Counted from the first letter of the stretch, positions 27,969-33,216 are shown. The stretch: DNA of 36,207 nucleotides from Candidatus Bathyarchaeota archaeon (GCA_004376295.1 SOJZ01000036.1:1-36207); one strand, 5' to 3'. The notes: generated by a model from the sequence alone, not told the origin. A program made the numbers and translations.

Positions 27969-28367
27969 ATGCATGAATGGGCTTTGGCGGAAGCAGTGGT
28001 CTCTACTACCCTCAAAATAGCGGAAGAAAAGGGGCTAAAAGAGATAATTGAACTTAAAATCAAAATCGGTGAATTACAGCAGATAGATCAAGAGATATTC
28101 GAGTTCGCTTTATCTCAACTTCGGTCTCCCATGCTCAAAAACGCCAAATTTAGTTTGGAGACCGTAAAGGCTGAATTAAAGTGCAGAGTTTGTAATCATA
28201 AATGGAAGTTTAGCACGAAGAACATGGACGAAGACGTGTCAGAGTTCATTCACTTTGTCCCAGAAATCGCTCACACATACCTGAAATGTCCCAAATGCGG
28301 GAGCCCAGACTTCGAGATTCTGATGGGACGTGGGGTTTGGCTGGACTCTATAAAAGGGGTGAAATAA
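27969..28367 (+). CDS. hypA: HypA, nickel insertion chaperone for [NiFe] hydrogenase
   Basis: This maturation factor delivers nickel to the large subunit of [NiFe] hydrogenases. It starts with MHEWALAEA; Met1-His2-Glu3 form the nickel site. The zinc domain has CRVC (72-75) and CPKC (107-110), with a longer insertion between the pairs (FSTKNMDEDVSEFIHFVPEIAH), as in Thermococcales HypA. The 132-residue length fits that archaeal type. It is followed after three bases by the Mrp-type ATPase, the same pairing as HypA with ATPase-type HypB in Thermococcus. No hydrogenase structural gene lies in the window. Confidence 0.92.
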   Translation: MHEWALAEAVVSTTLKIAEEKGLKEIIELKIKIGELQQIDQEIFEFALSQLRSPMLKNAKFSLETVKAELKCRVCNHKWKFSTKNMDEDVSEFIHFVPEIAHTYLKCPKCGSPDFEILMGRGVWLDSIKGVK

Positions 28368-28370
28368 TCT

Positions 28371-29096
28371 ATGGTTGACCCCAGACTAAACATCATTAAT
28401 GAAAGACTGGCAAAAATAAGGAAGATAATAGCGGTCTCCAGCGGCAAAGGAGGAGTGGGCAAGAGCATGATCGCATCCACTTTGGCACTCGCCTTATCAA
28501 GAAGAGGCTACAAAGTGGGTCTGCTGGACCTAGACTTCTCCTGTCCCTCCACACACGTAATACTAAACATCAAGGGGCTTTATCCAGAGGAGGAGAAGGG
28601 AATTATTCCGCCTGAAGCTCACGGCCTAAGATACATGTCGATTATTTACTATGCCCGTGACGAACCTTCACCGCTAAGAGGCGTTGACATCTCCAACGCG
28701 ATAATAGAACTATTCGCTATAACTCAGTGGGGCTCGCTGGATTTTCTGGTCATCGATATGCCTCCAGGCATCGGAGACGCGACCTTGGACATGATCAGAT
28801 TCGTCAAGGGAATCAACTTTCTCATAGTGACAACTCCTTCCAAGGTAGCGTTTGAAACAGTCAGAAAACTGATGCAACTGTTAAAGGACTTGAAGGTGCC
28901 CATCCTAGGCGTCGTCGAGAACATGAAGATGAGGGATTCGCCGTTCATCCGAGAGCAGGTTGAAAGGCTTGGTGTACCTTTTTTGGGGGAGATAAAATTC
29001 GACTATATGCTTGAAGACTCGATGGGGGATGTAAAGAAGCTATTGGAAACCGAGTTCGTGCAAAGCGTGGAAGAAATAGTTTCAAAGAAACTCTGA
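28371..29096 (+). CDS. Mrp/MinD-family ATPase, ATPase-type HypB partner of HypA
   Basis: A deviant-Walker P-loop ATPase: SGKGGVGKS at residues 24-32, LLDLDFSCPS (switch I region), VIDMPPGIGD (Walker B/switch II), TTPSKVA and VVENMK. The 241-residue length and position directly after hypA match the HypB-AT protein of Thermococcus, which replaces the GTPase HypB and drives nickel transfer with HypA. It lacks the C-terminal CxxC of Fe-S carrier Mrp/NBP35 proteins, supporting a metallochaperone rather than an Fe-S carrier role. GGGGTGA at 28356-28362 is the SD; ATG 28371. The assignment to HypB function rests on context. Confidence 0.85.
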   Translation: MVDPRLNIINERLAKIRKIIAVSSGKGGVGKSMIASTLALALSRRGYKVGLLDLDFSCPSTHVILNIKGLYPEEEKGIIPPEAHGLRYMSIIYYARDEPSPLRGVDISNAIIELFAITQWGSLDFLVIDMPPGIGDATLDMIRFVKGINFLIVTTPSKVAFETVRKLMQLLKDLKVPILGVVENMKMRDSPFIREQVERLGVPFLGEIKFDYMLEDSMGDVKKLLETEFVQSVEEIVSKKL

Positions 29097-29906: not shown

Positions 29907-30012
29907 TGGTGCAGGGGATGGGATTTGAACCCATGTACCCCTTCGGGACGGGATCTTGAGTCCCGCGCATAAAGTCCCTCTATGAGGATTGACCAAGCTC
30001 TGCTACCCCTGC
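29907..30012 (-). tRNA. tRNA-Leu(CAA) with an ~18-nt insertion in the D-arm
   Basis: The acceptor stem GCAGGGG (30012-30006) pairs perfectly with CCCCTGC (29917-29911), followed by discriminator A and an encoded CCA (29909-29907). T-arm ATGGG-TTCAAAT-CCCAT, a long variable arm typical of class II tRNAs, and the anticodon stem CGGGA/TCCCG with loop CTCAAGA (anticodon CAA) are all intact. The gene is 103 bases without CCA, too long by about 18. The surplus lies between the GGTCAA of the D-loop and the D-stem 3' strand, roughly 29971-29988, and contains a small hairpin CCTC-ATA-GAGG. Removing it restores GCA/TGC D-stem pairing. A non-canonical archaeal tRNA intron is the simplest reading. Confidence 0.93.
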
Positions 30013-30151
30013 ACCATCTCACAAACTACCATCTCGCTTCTATTATTTTTTTCCAACACCACGACTAAGACTAGTCAGCAGAACAAGTTAAAATTCTTGA
30101 AAACGACCATCCAACCAGTGTCCACCTGCACACGCCCGCACCAAACCACAA

Positions 30152-30163
30152 CAATTATAAACA
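30152..30163 (+). promoter_or_regulatory. TATA box of the TPP-riboswitch operon
   Basis: CAATTATAAACA lies about 40 bases before the riboswitch core. Archaeal spacing puts transcription start near 30180, so the RNA would begin just upstream of the aptamer. Confidence 0.5.
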
Positions 30164-30189
30164 CAAACTATCACTCACACAACATCCAT

Positions 30190-30287
30190 CAGAAAAGAGG
30201 GGAGCTAGGGGCAAAACCCAGCTGAGAGGACGGCAAAACGCGTCGTCGACCCTTAGAACCTGATCCAGATAATACTGGCGGAGGGAA
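30190..30287 (+). promoter_or_regulatory. TPP (THI-box) riboswitch
   Basis: The leader carries the conserved TPP-aptamer segments in order: GGGGAGC (from about 30199), CTGAGA (30222-30227), GACCC (about 30248-30252), and the distal block CCTGATCCAGATAAT (30259-30273) followed by CTGGCGGAGGGA. Direct TPP binding is expected. GGAGGG at 30280-30285, the aptamer's 3' end, is also the SD for the ATG at 30291. This suggests translational control: TPP-bound RNA hides the SD and lowers expression. I could not find a conventional P1 closing stem, because the bases flanking the core are A-rich on both sides. The switch mechanism is therefore uncertain even though the aptamer is clear. Confidence 0.92.
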
Positions 30288-30290
30288 AAA

Positions 30291-30836
30291 ATGAAAAATA
30301 ACACTAATTCTCAAACTGTAAGTGCCCAACCTAGAGCTACTATAAAATTGGCCATGACAGCAGTGATGTCCGCATTAATCGCAGTAACCACCGTAACAGC
30401 TATACCCATGCCCCCCCCACTCTCCACCATAACGCTAGCCCCGATAGTGATATTCGTAGCGGGCATACTCATGGGCCCAATCCCAGCCCTAATCTCCTCT
30501 ATCATTGGATCTGGACTCGGTTTCCTCGGAGGAGCAACTATAGGATCGATAAGCGTGCCTCCAGGGTTTATGGGTGTATTCCTTTTAGGAATTGTCGTCG
30601 CTAGAGGACCAATGGGCTTCACTGTAGGTCTGCTTAGAAAGACGGATGAGGTGGCAGCTATGACGGCGGGCGTGTTAGTGGAGACTGCAATTTTCTTCTT
30701 TATGGATTGGTATCTATTCGGTTTTGAAGTGGCTCTAATAGTTCTGGGAACACTCATCGATCTAGTATTTGTACCCTTTGGCTACCTTGTTCTCAAGGCA
30801 GTCAAAAAGATGTGGGATGTTACTACATTGGAGTAG
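30291..30836 (+). CDS. Membrane S-component-like transporter for thiamine or a precursor
   Basis: A 181-residue integral membrane protein with five or six hydrophobic segments (LAMTAVMSALIAVTTVTAI; ITLAPIVIFVAGILMGPIPALISSIIGSGLGFL; FMGVFLLGIVV; MTAGVLVETAIFFFMDWYLFGF; ALIVLGTLIDLVFVPFGYLVL). The pattern resembles substrate-binding (S) components of ECF transporters such as ThiW/ThiT/HmpT. Its position directly behind a TPP riboswitch supports uptake of thiamine, HMP or a thiazole. No ECF ATPase or T component is adjacent. It would have to share a general energising module, or work alone. A hydrophilic 20-residue N-terminus precedes the first helix. Confidence 0.8.
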   Translation: MKNNTNSQTVSAQPRATIKLAMTAVMSALIAVTTVTAIPMPPPLSTITLAPIVIFVAGILMGPIPALISSIIGSGLGFLGGATIGSISVPPGFMGVFLLGIVVARGPMGFTVGLLRKTDEVAAMTAGVLVETAIFFFMDWYLFGFEVALIVLGTLIDLVFVPFGYLVLKAVKKMWDVTTLE

Positions 30837-30841
30837 TAATG

Positions 30842-31519
30842 ATGCAGAGGGATGCTTGGTACTTTCAAGAGGACATCGTCAAGACTTATGAGTCTTATTA
30901 TCAGAAGAAGTATAAAAGAGCGGACGAATTAGAGAAGGCTCTGTTGAAAAAGCTGTTAGACACGCTGGGACCGACAGAAACTTTACTTGAAGTAGGTTGT
31001 GGTACAAGTCATTTCACAAGATGGTTCGAATCCTTAGGTTTAAAGTGCTATGGATTCGATTTATCCGATTTGATGTTGAAGGAGGCTAAGAGCCTATGGC
31101 CTGAGGGAGACCTATTGCGCGGTGAATCTTCCTTTTTACCTTTCCAAAATAATTCCTTCGACATCGTAGCCTATGTAGCCTGCATGATATACATGCTTAA
31201 TCCTGTAAAAGTCATACGCGAAGCGTCGAGAGTCGCTCGTAAAGGGATAATCTTCGGATTGATAAACAAGTGGAGTCTACCCACCTTAAGAAGGATCATT
31301 CAAGTAAAAATGGGAAAAAACCCTTATTACAAAAACGCCAAGTTTTATTCAATCAACGGCATGAAACGGACGTTAAAGGACGCCCTCGACGACAAGTATA
31401 TAATACCCTATTGGAGCACAACGGTCTTTCCCAAGATTTTTGGAAAGGTACAGTCCTCCTTTTTTCCCTTTGGCGCATTCGTAGGAATAGCTGTCAAATT
31501 GGGGGAAAAACTTGATTAA
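30842..31519 (+). CDS. Class I SAM-dependent methyltransferase
   Basis: Rossmann-type methyltransferase: SAM motif I is LLEVGCGTSHFTRWF, acidic residue at the end of strand 2 (GFDLSDLML), motif with LPFQNNSFDIVAYV. Like the UbiE/COQ5-type small-molecule enzymes it lacks an extra domain, and 225 residues is normal. GGAG at 30830-30833 precedes two adjacent ATGs (30839, 30842), of which the second has the better spacing. The gene starts within six bases of the previous stop and overlaps the next by eight, so it is firmly part of the TPP-responsive operon. No methyltransferase is needed in the standard thiamine route, so its substrate is an open question. Confidence 0.85.
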   Translation: MQRDAWYFQEDIVKTYESYYQKKYKRADELEKALLKKLLDTLGPTETLLEVGCGTSHFTRWFESLGLKCYGFDLSDLMLKEAKSLWPEGDLLRGESSFLPFQNNSFDIVAYVACMIYMLNPVKVIREASRVARKGIIFGLINKWSLPTLRRIIQVKMGKNPYYKNAKFYSINGMKRTLKDALDDKYIIPYWSTTVFPKIFGKVQSSFFPFGAFVGIAVKLGEKLD

Positions 31520-32573
31520 CCTATCTAAAGTTGGAAAGTTCTCTCCAGATCTAATGGAAAAAATCGTATATCAAAGGTTAGGAAGAAAAAGACCAGAAAT
31601 TCTCGTAGGCCCAAATCATGGACTTGACAATGCCGTAATTCAGTTAGGATACAACCAGGTTTTAGTGGTCACATCAGATCCATTATCAGTCATCCCTGTT
31701 CTTGGCTTGCAAGATTCCGCTTGGCTCTCCGTACACCTACTATCCTCAGATATAAGCACTTGCGGGTTTCCGCCACAATTCATTATGGCCAACTTTAGCC
31801 TTCCTCCACACATGAAAGACGAAGAGTTCGAGGAATATTGGGACGCCTTTCACAGAGAGTGCGACAAACTGAGCATCGCTATTCTAGGAGGACACACCGG
31901 TAGATATGCGGGATGCGACTACACAATTATAGGCGGAGGGGTCATGATGACCTTGGCTCCAGAAGACCGCTACCTGTCCAGCAGCATGGCAAGGCCAGGA
32001 GACCTGGTAATCATGACGAAGGGAGTAGCCATAGCAACTACCGGAATACTGGCGAAGACGTTTCCTAGAACCGTTGAAAGCGCGTATGGGGCGTCCTTCC
32101 TTAAGAGCGCGCAATCGCATTTTTATCAATTTAGCGTAGTCAAGGATGCTTTGACCGCTGCCTCAGTAGGCTTAAGAGATGAGGGAGTCACAGCTATGCA
32201 TGATGTAACTGAGGGTGGGCTACTGGGGGCTATATATGAGCTTGCAGAAGCTTCTAAAGTAGGTATACAGATCGACCTTTCTAATGCTATAATGACTCAA
32301 GAAGCGAAGCTTATTTGTGATTTATTTGACTTGGACCCCTATATGACGTTAAGCGAAGGGACTCTACTGATCACTACGAAGTCAGAGAAGGCTCAAGAAG
32401 TTCTCAAGGCTCTACAGTCAAGTGGGATTAAGGCTAAGATCATTGGAAAAATAATGAGAAAACAACATGGAAGATGGATAGAAAAAAATGGAGAACACCA
32501 ACGGTTAAGAAAGCCAACCACCGACCCCTATTGGGAGGCGTATTGGAAAGCTCGTCAAAAGGGTTGGAAGTGA
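31512..32573 (+). CDS. AIR-synthase/HypE/ThiL-superfamily protein
   Basis: Member of the PurM-like ATP-binding superfamily (AIR synthase, HypE, SelD, ThiL). It has GLDNAVI (37-43) in place of the usual GDDAAVI, an SDPLS strand, SVHLLSSDISTCGFPPQF, ILGGHTGRYAG, and HDVTEGGLLGAIYELAEAS typical of the HypE-like branch. It lacks the C-terminal PRxC of HypE, so it does not carry the thiocarboxamide cysteine. In a TPP-controlled operon a ThiL-like role (thiamine phosphate kinase) is tempting, but the sequence is closer to the general AIRS-related group. TTG 31512 has GGGGG six bases upstream, overlapping the methyltransferase end. Confidence 0.75.
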   Translation: MINLSKVGKFSPDLMEKIVYQRLGRKRPEILVGPNHGLDNAVIQLGYNQVLVVTSDPLSVIPVLGLQDSAWLSVHLLSSDISTCGFPPQFIMANFSLPPHMKDEEFEEYWDAFHRECDKLSIAILGGHTGRYAGCDYTIIGGGVMMTLAPEDRYLSSSMARPGDLVIMTKGVAIATTGILAKTFPRTVESAYGASFLKSAQSHFYQFSVVKDALTAASVGLRDEGVTAMHDVTEGGLLGAIYELAEASKVGIQIDLSNAIMTQEAKLICDLFDLDPYMTLSEGTLLITTKSEKAQEVLKALQSSGIKAKIIGKIMRKQHGRWIEKNGEHQRLRKPTTDPYWEAYWKARQKGWK

Positions 32574-32577
32574 TTCG

Positions 32578-33216
32578 TTGAAAAGATTACAAGGTTTGTA
32601 TCTTGTGGTTGACCCAACAATGCCTCACCGTAGGCTACTTGACGTAGTTGAGAAAGCCTTGAAAGGAGGGGTTGCCATACTGCAGCTTTGGGCAGCTTGG
32701 CAGAAAAAGTCTAAACCTTTGGAACTGGCTAAGAAATTACTAAATTTGGTAAATGGTTACAATGTGCCGCTAATCATAAACAACGATATACAACTGGCAA
32801 AAGAAGTTGAAGCGCACGGGGTACATATGGATAGATATAACGTCGTCCCAGCGGATGTAAGGAAAGCGCTCGGTGAGCAAAGCATAGTAGGCTACACTGT
32901 GGGCAATGACTTGGAAAGAGTCAAATGGGCTGAAACTGTTGGAGCGGATTACGTGTCTTTCTGCGCTGTCTTTCCAACCACATCCGTCACTCAATGCGAG
33001 ATAATACCTCTTAGCACCATAAGATTGGCTAAATCCTTAACCCATCTACCAGTGTTCGCATCAGGGGGCATAAATCTAAGCAACGCTCACCTAGTCCTTG
33101 AGACTGGGGTGGATGGAATCGCCGTTATATCGTCTATACTCAAAGCTCAGAACCCAGAAAAAGCTGCAGAATCCTTCAAGAAGATCATTAATGAATATAA
33201 AGACAAAATCAAGTAG
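32578..33216 (+). CDS. thiE: Divergent thiamine-phosphate synthase (ThiE-like)
   Basis: A TIM-barrel protein of the ThiE/TenI family: GLYLVVDPTM, GVAILQLW (32-38), PLIINND (64-70), GVHMDRYNV, GADYVSFCAVFPTTS (122-136), FASGGINLSNAHLVLETGVDGIAVISSI. Classical ThiE couples HMP-PP with thiazole phosphate. Several usual ligands look replaced here: the VQLR-x-K region reads LQLWAAW, IND-D reads INN-D, GQxD reads DRYN, and the PT-x-TK loop reads PTTSVTQ. The fold is secure, but the reaction may differ. TTG 32578 lies four bases after the previous stop. It ends the riboswitch operon and converges with the MBL gene three bases away. Confidence 0.8.
   Translation: MKRLQGLYLVVDPTMPHRRLLDVVEKALKGGVAILQLWAAWQKKSKPLELAKKLLNLVNGYNVPLIINNDIQLAKEVEAHGVHMDRYNVVPADVRKALGEQSIVGYTVGNDLERVKWAETVGADYVSFCAVFPTTSVTQCEIIPLSTIRLAKSLTHLPVFASGGINLSNAHLVLETGVDGIAVISSILKAQNPEKAAESFKKIINEYKDKIK

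Follow-up and report, generated by a model that had tools for sequence, protein, structure and literature searches.

A TPP-riboswitch operon of Bathyarchaeia combining a GGHTGRY-type AIRS protein with a linked methyltransferase and a divergent ThiE

In the genome of a Bathyarchaeia member (GCA_004376295.1), an operon located behind a TPP riboswitch was found to encode an ECF-type S component, a methyltransferase (MT), a protein of the AIRS/PurM superfamily (AIRS) and a protein featuring the thiamine-phosphate-synthase fold with replaced active-site residues (ThiE-like protein). The operon, which resides on a stretch of DNA of 36,207 nucleotides (SOJZ01000036.1:1-36207; referred to as the window), probably serves an undescribed way of handling vitamin B1 or fragments thereof, its chemistry being predicted from gene context, conserved residues and the chemistry of related enzymes. 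Members of the AIRS family were also detected without the other two enzymes, while MT and the ThiE-like protein recur together, next to AIRS, in at least four deep lineages.

Results

The aptamer (positions 30188..30303, plus strand) was recognized by the Rfam model RF00059 with a score of 59.6 bits (gathering score 54.3, E-value 2.1e-9), includes the conserved core, and was the sole TPP aptamer detected by Rfam search in the host genome (1.89 Mb, completeness 99.8%). In the Rfam alignment, all five P1 pairs are non-standard, the closing P1 helix is not evident, and P1 was not recovered by single-sequence folding of the window aptamer. The lack of an evident P1 represents a weakness for this single aptamer, yet the same element, scoring between 59.7 and 64.0 bits, was found in the same position ahead of the orthologous operons L032, L033, and L034. 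Direct control of the translation start by the aptamer is plausible, because a GGAGG motif and the start codon of gene 1 are located within its 3' end, gene 1 beginning at 30291 and the aptamer model ending at 30303. A candidate TATA-box-like sequence, ATTATAAA (30154..30161, plus strand), was read from the sequence approximately 27-34 bases 5' of the aptamer, corresponding to the spacing expected for an archaeal promoter. For related operons from Kryptonia and those encoding an APC permease, no TPP riboswitch was found at the Rfam level.

The four genes downstream of the aptamer are separated by 5, -8, and 4 bases, which agrees with the preliminary description of a TPP aptamer preceding four tightly packed genes. 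The first gene encodes the ECF-type S component, i.e., the substrate-binding membrane subunit (30291..30836, plus strand), and matched PF07155 with 26.7 bits, exactly at the cut-off of 26.7, its relative in L032 achieving 38.8 bits. Orthologues of this subunit featuring 50-56% identity adjoin MT or AIRS in L032, L033, and L034, and identity to those in the other Bathyarchaeia family amounted to 26-31%. The transported substrate is probably thiamine or a precursor. MT (30842..31519, plus strand) represents a SAM-dependent class I methyltransferase (PF08241, 60.7 bits), for which the ATG aligned with its relatives was taken as the start instead of the upstream GTG at 30812 given in the ORF list. 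Its SAM motif is intact (E50-x-G-C-G-T and D73) and is conserved across ten aligned MT sequences, save one exchange of Cys to Ser. The genes for AIRS (31512..32573, plus strand; PF00586 and PF02769) and the ThiE-like protein (32578..33216, plus strand; PF02581 and TIGR00693) complete the operon.

Genome-wide family searches with working controls covered ThiC, ThiD, ThiN, Thi4, ThiM, ThiE, and ThiL. In the host genome (G000), no match was obtained for ThiC, for ThiN or, using PF08543, for ThiD; the latter also applied to the Bathyarchaeia genome G131, and G152 featured a partial match of 26.7 bits. ThiM was not found in G000 by means of PF02110, since the only match obtained turned out to be an NAD(P)H-hydrate dehydratase on checking; following this result, the other PF02110 matches were interpreted as enzymes of the same type or as sugar kinases. 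Likewise, Thi4 was not found in G000: the Thi4 matches exceeding the cut-off in all genomes were short Rossmann stretches within frames of 300-1200 aa. No second ThiE/TMP-TENI protein was detected in G000 beyond the window's copy. A canonical ThiL is present (G000:C12, 266.9 bits), and therefore the conversion of TMP to TPP is covered. Judging from its gene content, the organism is unable to make thiamine by the known pathway.

AIRS was previously considered to be neither a clean ThiL nor HypE, and its scores are indeed far below both equivalog cut-offs: 82.6-83.1 bits for TIGR01379 (thiL; cut-off 184.15) and 86.2 bits for TIGR02124 (hypE; cut-off 251.6). For TIGR00476 (selD), 73.7 bits were achieved, compared to a cut-off of 125. 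The HypE-type C-terminal cysteine occurs in none of the 22 aligned family members, and the SelD-type N-terminal Cys/Sec was not seen in the family alignment. Instead, the signature GGHTGRY, HDxTE[GC]G, and a C-terminal DPYW characterize the family. The AF2 model (pLDDT 93.5) is nearest to the folds of HypE, ThiL, and SelD, and PDB profile and fold searches did not separate a ThiL-like from a HypE-like assignment. With a 12-member alignment as the query, a scan limited to a single genome for each species yielded at least 567 relatives; the best 80 come from Bathyarchaeia, from other archaea, and from numerous bacterial phyla. By these comparisons, AIRS forms a separate family, and an ordinary ThiL role is unlikely because the canonical ThiL is encoded elsewhere in the genome. 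A ubiquitous paralogue featuring approximately 35% identity (G000:C23) was considered as a candidate for the same function and was rejected, as it does not possess the GGHTGRY motif. On plasmids, the search returned only 'AIR synthase family protein' entries of approximately 30-34% identity in haloarchaea and two bacteria.

A TPP riboswitch precedes the AIRS gene in many unrelated operons and phyla, also where MT or ThiE are missing, and three contexts were distinguished. In context (i), found in Bathyarchaeia possessing ThiL and lacking ThiE, ThiN, ThiC, and ThiD, the only companion of AIRS is an ECF S gene; the step missing in these organisms is the conversion of thiamine to TMP. Context (ii) comprises bacteria in which AIRS follows the riboswitch (RS) either alone (RS-AIRS) or as RS-AIRS-tenA-thiE-thiL-thiD, ThiM being absent in all five bacterial genomes tested. 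In context (iii), AIRS is located between MT and the ThiE-like protein. Because AIRS often occurs alone or beside ordinary tenA-thiE-thiL-thiD genes, it should have a function independent of MT and the ThiE-like protein. A single activity, phosphorylation of a hydroxyethyl group, would fit all three contexts; considering also the chemistry of the superfamily, the most likely substrates of AIRS are thiamine and/or free thiazole, phosphorylated at the hydroxyethyl arm, which would feed ThiL.

The ThiE-like protein passed the TIGR00693 cut-off of 145.1 with 158.9 bits, and its AF2 model (pLDDT 94.1) best matched B. subtilis ThiE (PDB 1g4s, TM 0.86). The altered active-site motifs noted previously were confirmed: R59, K61, and K159, the pyrophosphate residues of the B. 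subtilis enzyme, correspond to W38, A40, and V137 in the window protein, and D93, which binds magnesium together with D112, corresponds to N69; S130 and G151 are replaced as well. Among the full-length MT-linked copies (n = 12; the copy of locus L121 ends at the contig edge), R59, K61, and K159 are lost in all, and D93 in 11, with only L187 keeping it. Q57 and N92 were kept in twelve and eight copies, respectively. The positions T/S156, T/S158, GG, and S209 are also retained (T134, S136, GGI, and S185 in the window), T156, T158, G188, and S209 of the B. subtilis enzyme being its thiazole-phosphate residues. Furthermore, 12/12 MT-linked copies share an invariant D85, T107, C129, and C140 (numbered as in the window protein), and the two cysteines are absent from canonical ThiE copies. 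AIRS-linked ThiE proteins without MT, on the other hand, kept R59, K61, D93, and S130 in 12 out of 12 cases. The MT-linked copies formed one clade with a support of 100/100 and, by this tree, share a single origin. In the putative leaving-group pocket, positive and metal-binding residues are swapped for neutral and acidic ones. A strict aromatic cage formed by W38 and Y87 was also considered; this idea was weakened, as W38 is found in 10/12 and Y87 in 7/12 copies, with I or L replacing W38 in the two closest relatives.

The trio of MT, AIRS, and ThiE-like protein was found in Bathyarchaeia (the window, L094/L032 in G152, and L033 in G131), other archaea (L101, L130, and L154), Acetothermia/Bipolaricaulota (L095 in Acetothermia; L096 and a second copy, L187, in Bipolaricaulota), and Kryptonia (L097, L098, and L100), i.e., in at least four deep lineages, with a further locus (L121) being cut by a contig end. 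In all trio loci, MT directly precedes AIRS and the ThiE homologue directly follows. A set assembled by local chance, as initially considered, is not compatible with this recurrence. The transporters vary between an ECF S component, an NMT1/THI5-type ABC system, and an APC permease. Thus, the part of the preliminary description that concerns the existence of the set and the divergence of its members is real, but the proposal that the four genes form one undescribed route has to be narrowed: judged by their distribution, MT and the ThiE-like protein are a linked pair, whereas AIRS is widespread without these partners, so that the operon does not represent a single, inseparable route.

Full-length ThiD was absent from all 12 MT-type genomes (G000, G152, G131, and G257-G265), the genomes compared being mostly MAGs and the bacterial ones coming without completeness figures; in Kryptonia, weak partial PF08543 matches of 36-42 bits were obtained, which could hide a divergent HMP kinase. 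In comparison, ThiD was detected with 296-344 bits in 5/5 tested genomes encoding AIRS and a canonical ThiE (Fisher p 1.6e-4, a value that ignores relatedness and hence overstates the evidence). Among the 16 genomes accessed by way of their loci, 15 lacked ThiC. Because of the residue changes in 12/12 copies and the absence of full-length ThiD in 12/12 genomes, use of HMP-PP by the ThiE-like protein is very unlikely, and ordinary ThiE activity is unlikely.

Discussion

The explanation tentatively favored here, with a confidence close to even, is a TPP-repressed thiamine-acquisition operon combining an AIRS kinase with an MT/ThiE-like pair that acts on the pyrimidine side and does without a pyrophosphate leaving group. 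The ECF S component would import thiamine or a fragment thereof, and AIRS, as an ATP-dependent kinase related to, and distinct from, ThiL, would phosphorylate thiamine and/or free thiazole at the 5-hydroxyethyl group, whereupon the chromosomal ThiL would yield TPP. The ThiE-like protein appears to have kept the thiazole-phosphate pocket and to lack the HMP pyrophosphate/magnesium pocket; as a putative transferase, it would join or exchange the pyrimidine with a different leaving group. MT probably readies the pyrimidine; in one such scenario, an aminomethylpyrimidine obtained by salvage would be methylated at an amine or thioether and thereby become able to leave. The creation of a leaving group by methylation is the most speculative step proposed. 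We infer that MT and the ThiE-like protein either replace the ThiD-ThiE chemistry or process an imported relative of thiamine. Aminomethylpyrimidine (AmMP) and FAMP are thiamine breakdown products occurring in the environment (PMC10470507). In those Bathyarchaeia encoding AIRS and an ECF S component only, AIRS needs neither MT nor the ThiE-like protein, which counts against the favored explanation, as do the Kryptonia and APC-permease operons, for which no TPP riboswitch was found at the Rfam level.

A more specific version, considered rather improbable, regards MT and the ThiE-like protein as a pyrophosphate-free thiamine synthase, in which SAM would provide an onium leaving group and coupling would occur to the thiazole phosphate delivered by the AIRS-family kinase, bypassing ThiD, ThiM, and HMP-PP. 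An onium leaving group would explain the SAM methyltransferase, the pocket devoid of positive residues, and the invariant aspartate; the idea of an onium in an aromatic pocket is weakened by the replacement of W38 with I or L in the two closest relatives. The fixed C129 also permits a covalent mechanism resembling that of thiaminase or TenA.

Mere uptake represents the most serious competitor, albeit an unlikely one. Here, intact thiamine would be imported and converted to TMP by AIRS and to TPP by ThiL, with the ThiE-like protein serving as a TenI-like isomerase, a binder of TMP or HET-P or a repair enzyme, and MT acting on damaged or methylated thiamine. The core of AIRS and transporter suffices in Bathyarchaeia with ECF S and AIRS only, and the ThiE-like protein retains the thiazole-phosphate pocket, as TenI does, TenI being also a fold match. 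However, the TenI model scored 82 bits against 251, G000 showed no sign of a Thi4-type thiazole synthase, and the strict linkage of MT and the ThiE-like protein would be left unexplained. About as improbable as the onium version is phosphorylation or activation by AIRS of a target other than the hydroxyethyl arm, e.g., the amide of FAMP. Enzymes of the PurM superfamily (PurM, PurL, and HypE) often activate amide oxygens, and genes of NMT1/THI5-type transporters adjoin AIRS in L096 and, by gene order, in L095; genomes featuring AIRS and ECF S without ThiE, ThiD, and ThiN argue against this proposal, as a pyrimidine fragment would be useless there.

Still less probable is a role in degradation or base exchange, in which the ThiE-like protein would reverse the ThiE reaction, using a nucleophile and C129 to cleave TMP or an analogue, and MT would act on a product. 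Thiaminase I and TenA use cysteine, and the invariance of C129 and C140 in MT-linked copies and their absence from canonical ones would suit such a mechanism, but the TPP riboswitch normally turns genes off when TPP is plentiful, G000 lacks ThiD and ThiM for reuse of the fragments, and the operon transporters point to acquisition. Finally, an ordinary ThiE affected by sequence drift, coupling HMP-PP and HET-P with the help of a non-orthologous HMP kinase and with MT as an unrelated passenger, would be in accordance with the fold and the TIGR00693 score. This is very improbable, because 12/12 copies from several phyla carry changes at the same residues, four others became newly fixed, and MT accompanies AIRS and the ThiE-like protein every time.

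In the open-access literature searched, no description of the MT-AIRS-ThiE-like set was found. Should AIRS prove to be a thiamine/thiazole kinase, a gap in the pathways of many uncultured archaea and bacteria would be closed, and a family of at least 567 detected relatives would receive a name. If MT and the ThiE-like protein make TMP without HMP-PP, they represent a new chemistry for joining the halves of vitamin B1; the present annotation of such genes as encoding an ordinary thiamine phosphate synthase would then be a misreading, and HMP use would be wrongly predicted.

Among known systems, TPP-riboswitch salvage operons (thiXYZ, tenA, thiD, thiE, and thiM) share the TPP control and the leading transporter followed by salvage enzymes, and the same AIRS family is located ahead of tenA-thiE-thiL-thiD in bacterial ones; unlike these, the window operon lacks thiD, tenA, and thiM, and encodes MT and the ThiE-like protein instead. 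AIRS resembles ThiL, HypE, and SelD in its N and C domains, its acidic residues D39, D56, D80, and D231, and its fold. It differs from ThiL, which features GGDT and is encoded in canonical form elsewhere in the genome, by its GGHT motif (also present in SelD), and from HypE and SelD by missing their C-terminal Cys and N-terminal Cys/Sec, respectively. With B. subtilis ThiE (1g4s/2tps), the ThiE-like protein has in common the fold, Q57, N92, the thiazole-phosphate site, and a TIGR00693 score over the cut-off, whereas R59, K61, D93, K159, S130, and G151 are missing, no ThiD partner is encoded, and AIRS and MT are always adjacent. A ThiE fold without HMP-PP chemistry and with a thiazole-phosphate pocket is also known from the thiazole tautomerase TenI; with 82.1 bits compared to the TenI cut-off of 251, however, the ThiE-like protein is nearer to ThiE in both sequence and structure.

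Genomic context of the AIRS and ThiE* proteins

The divergent ThiE homologue of the operon (ThiE*, window 32578-33216) was found to score above the NCBIfam ThiE cut-off, though its catalytic residues are lost, and automatic annotation will therefore label it as thiamine phosphate synthase. In one Bipolaricaulota genome (G258), the set of SAM methyltransferase, AIRS and ThiE* genes was detected twice, at loci L096 and L187, the copies having diverged, which suggests that they serve two substrates or that one set was gained separately. Downstream of the AIRS set, a dihydrolipoamide dehydrogenase gene was identified at three archaeal loci (L101, L113, and L154), and a lipoyl ligase gene at two of them (L101 and L154). 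Since both genes come after AIRS in several archaea, the set was linked to TPP/lipoate-dependent 2-oxoacid dehydrogenases.

Most genomes of the class Bathyarchaeia carry a second AIRS protein with approximately 35% identity to the operon-encoded paralogue. In the genome studied, it is located at G000:C23:24672-25661 (L049:8655-9680), and it was ruled out as HypE by score. It is directly preceded by an ECF S-component-like gene of the TIGR04002/FolT-like type (L049:7823-8584); this AIRS-transporter pair possibly serves a different vitamin.

TPP aptamer and other features of the window

The TPP aptamer (30188-30303) appears to lack a standard P1 closing helix, and in the aptamers of archaeal relatives the 5' flank pairs alternatively with AACC or GGAGG. 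On the minus strand (29908-30016), a candidate tRNA gene was noted that would be intron-containing, with an extended variable arm; neither ARAGORN nor Rfam returned a match for it. Further upstream (27969-29096), a putative HypA-like gene is followed, after a 3-base gap, by a predicted Mrp/NBP35-type ATPase gene. Judged by sequence, this arrangement would resemble the HypA-HypB pair, with an Mrp-like partner in place of an ordinary HypB.
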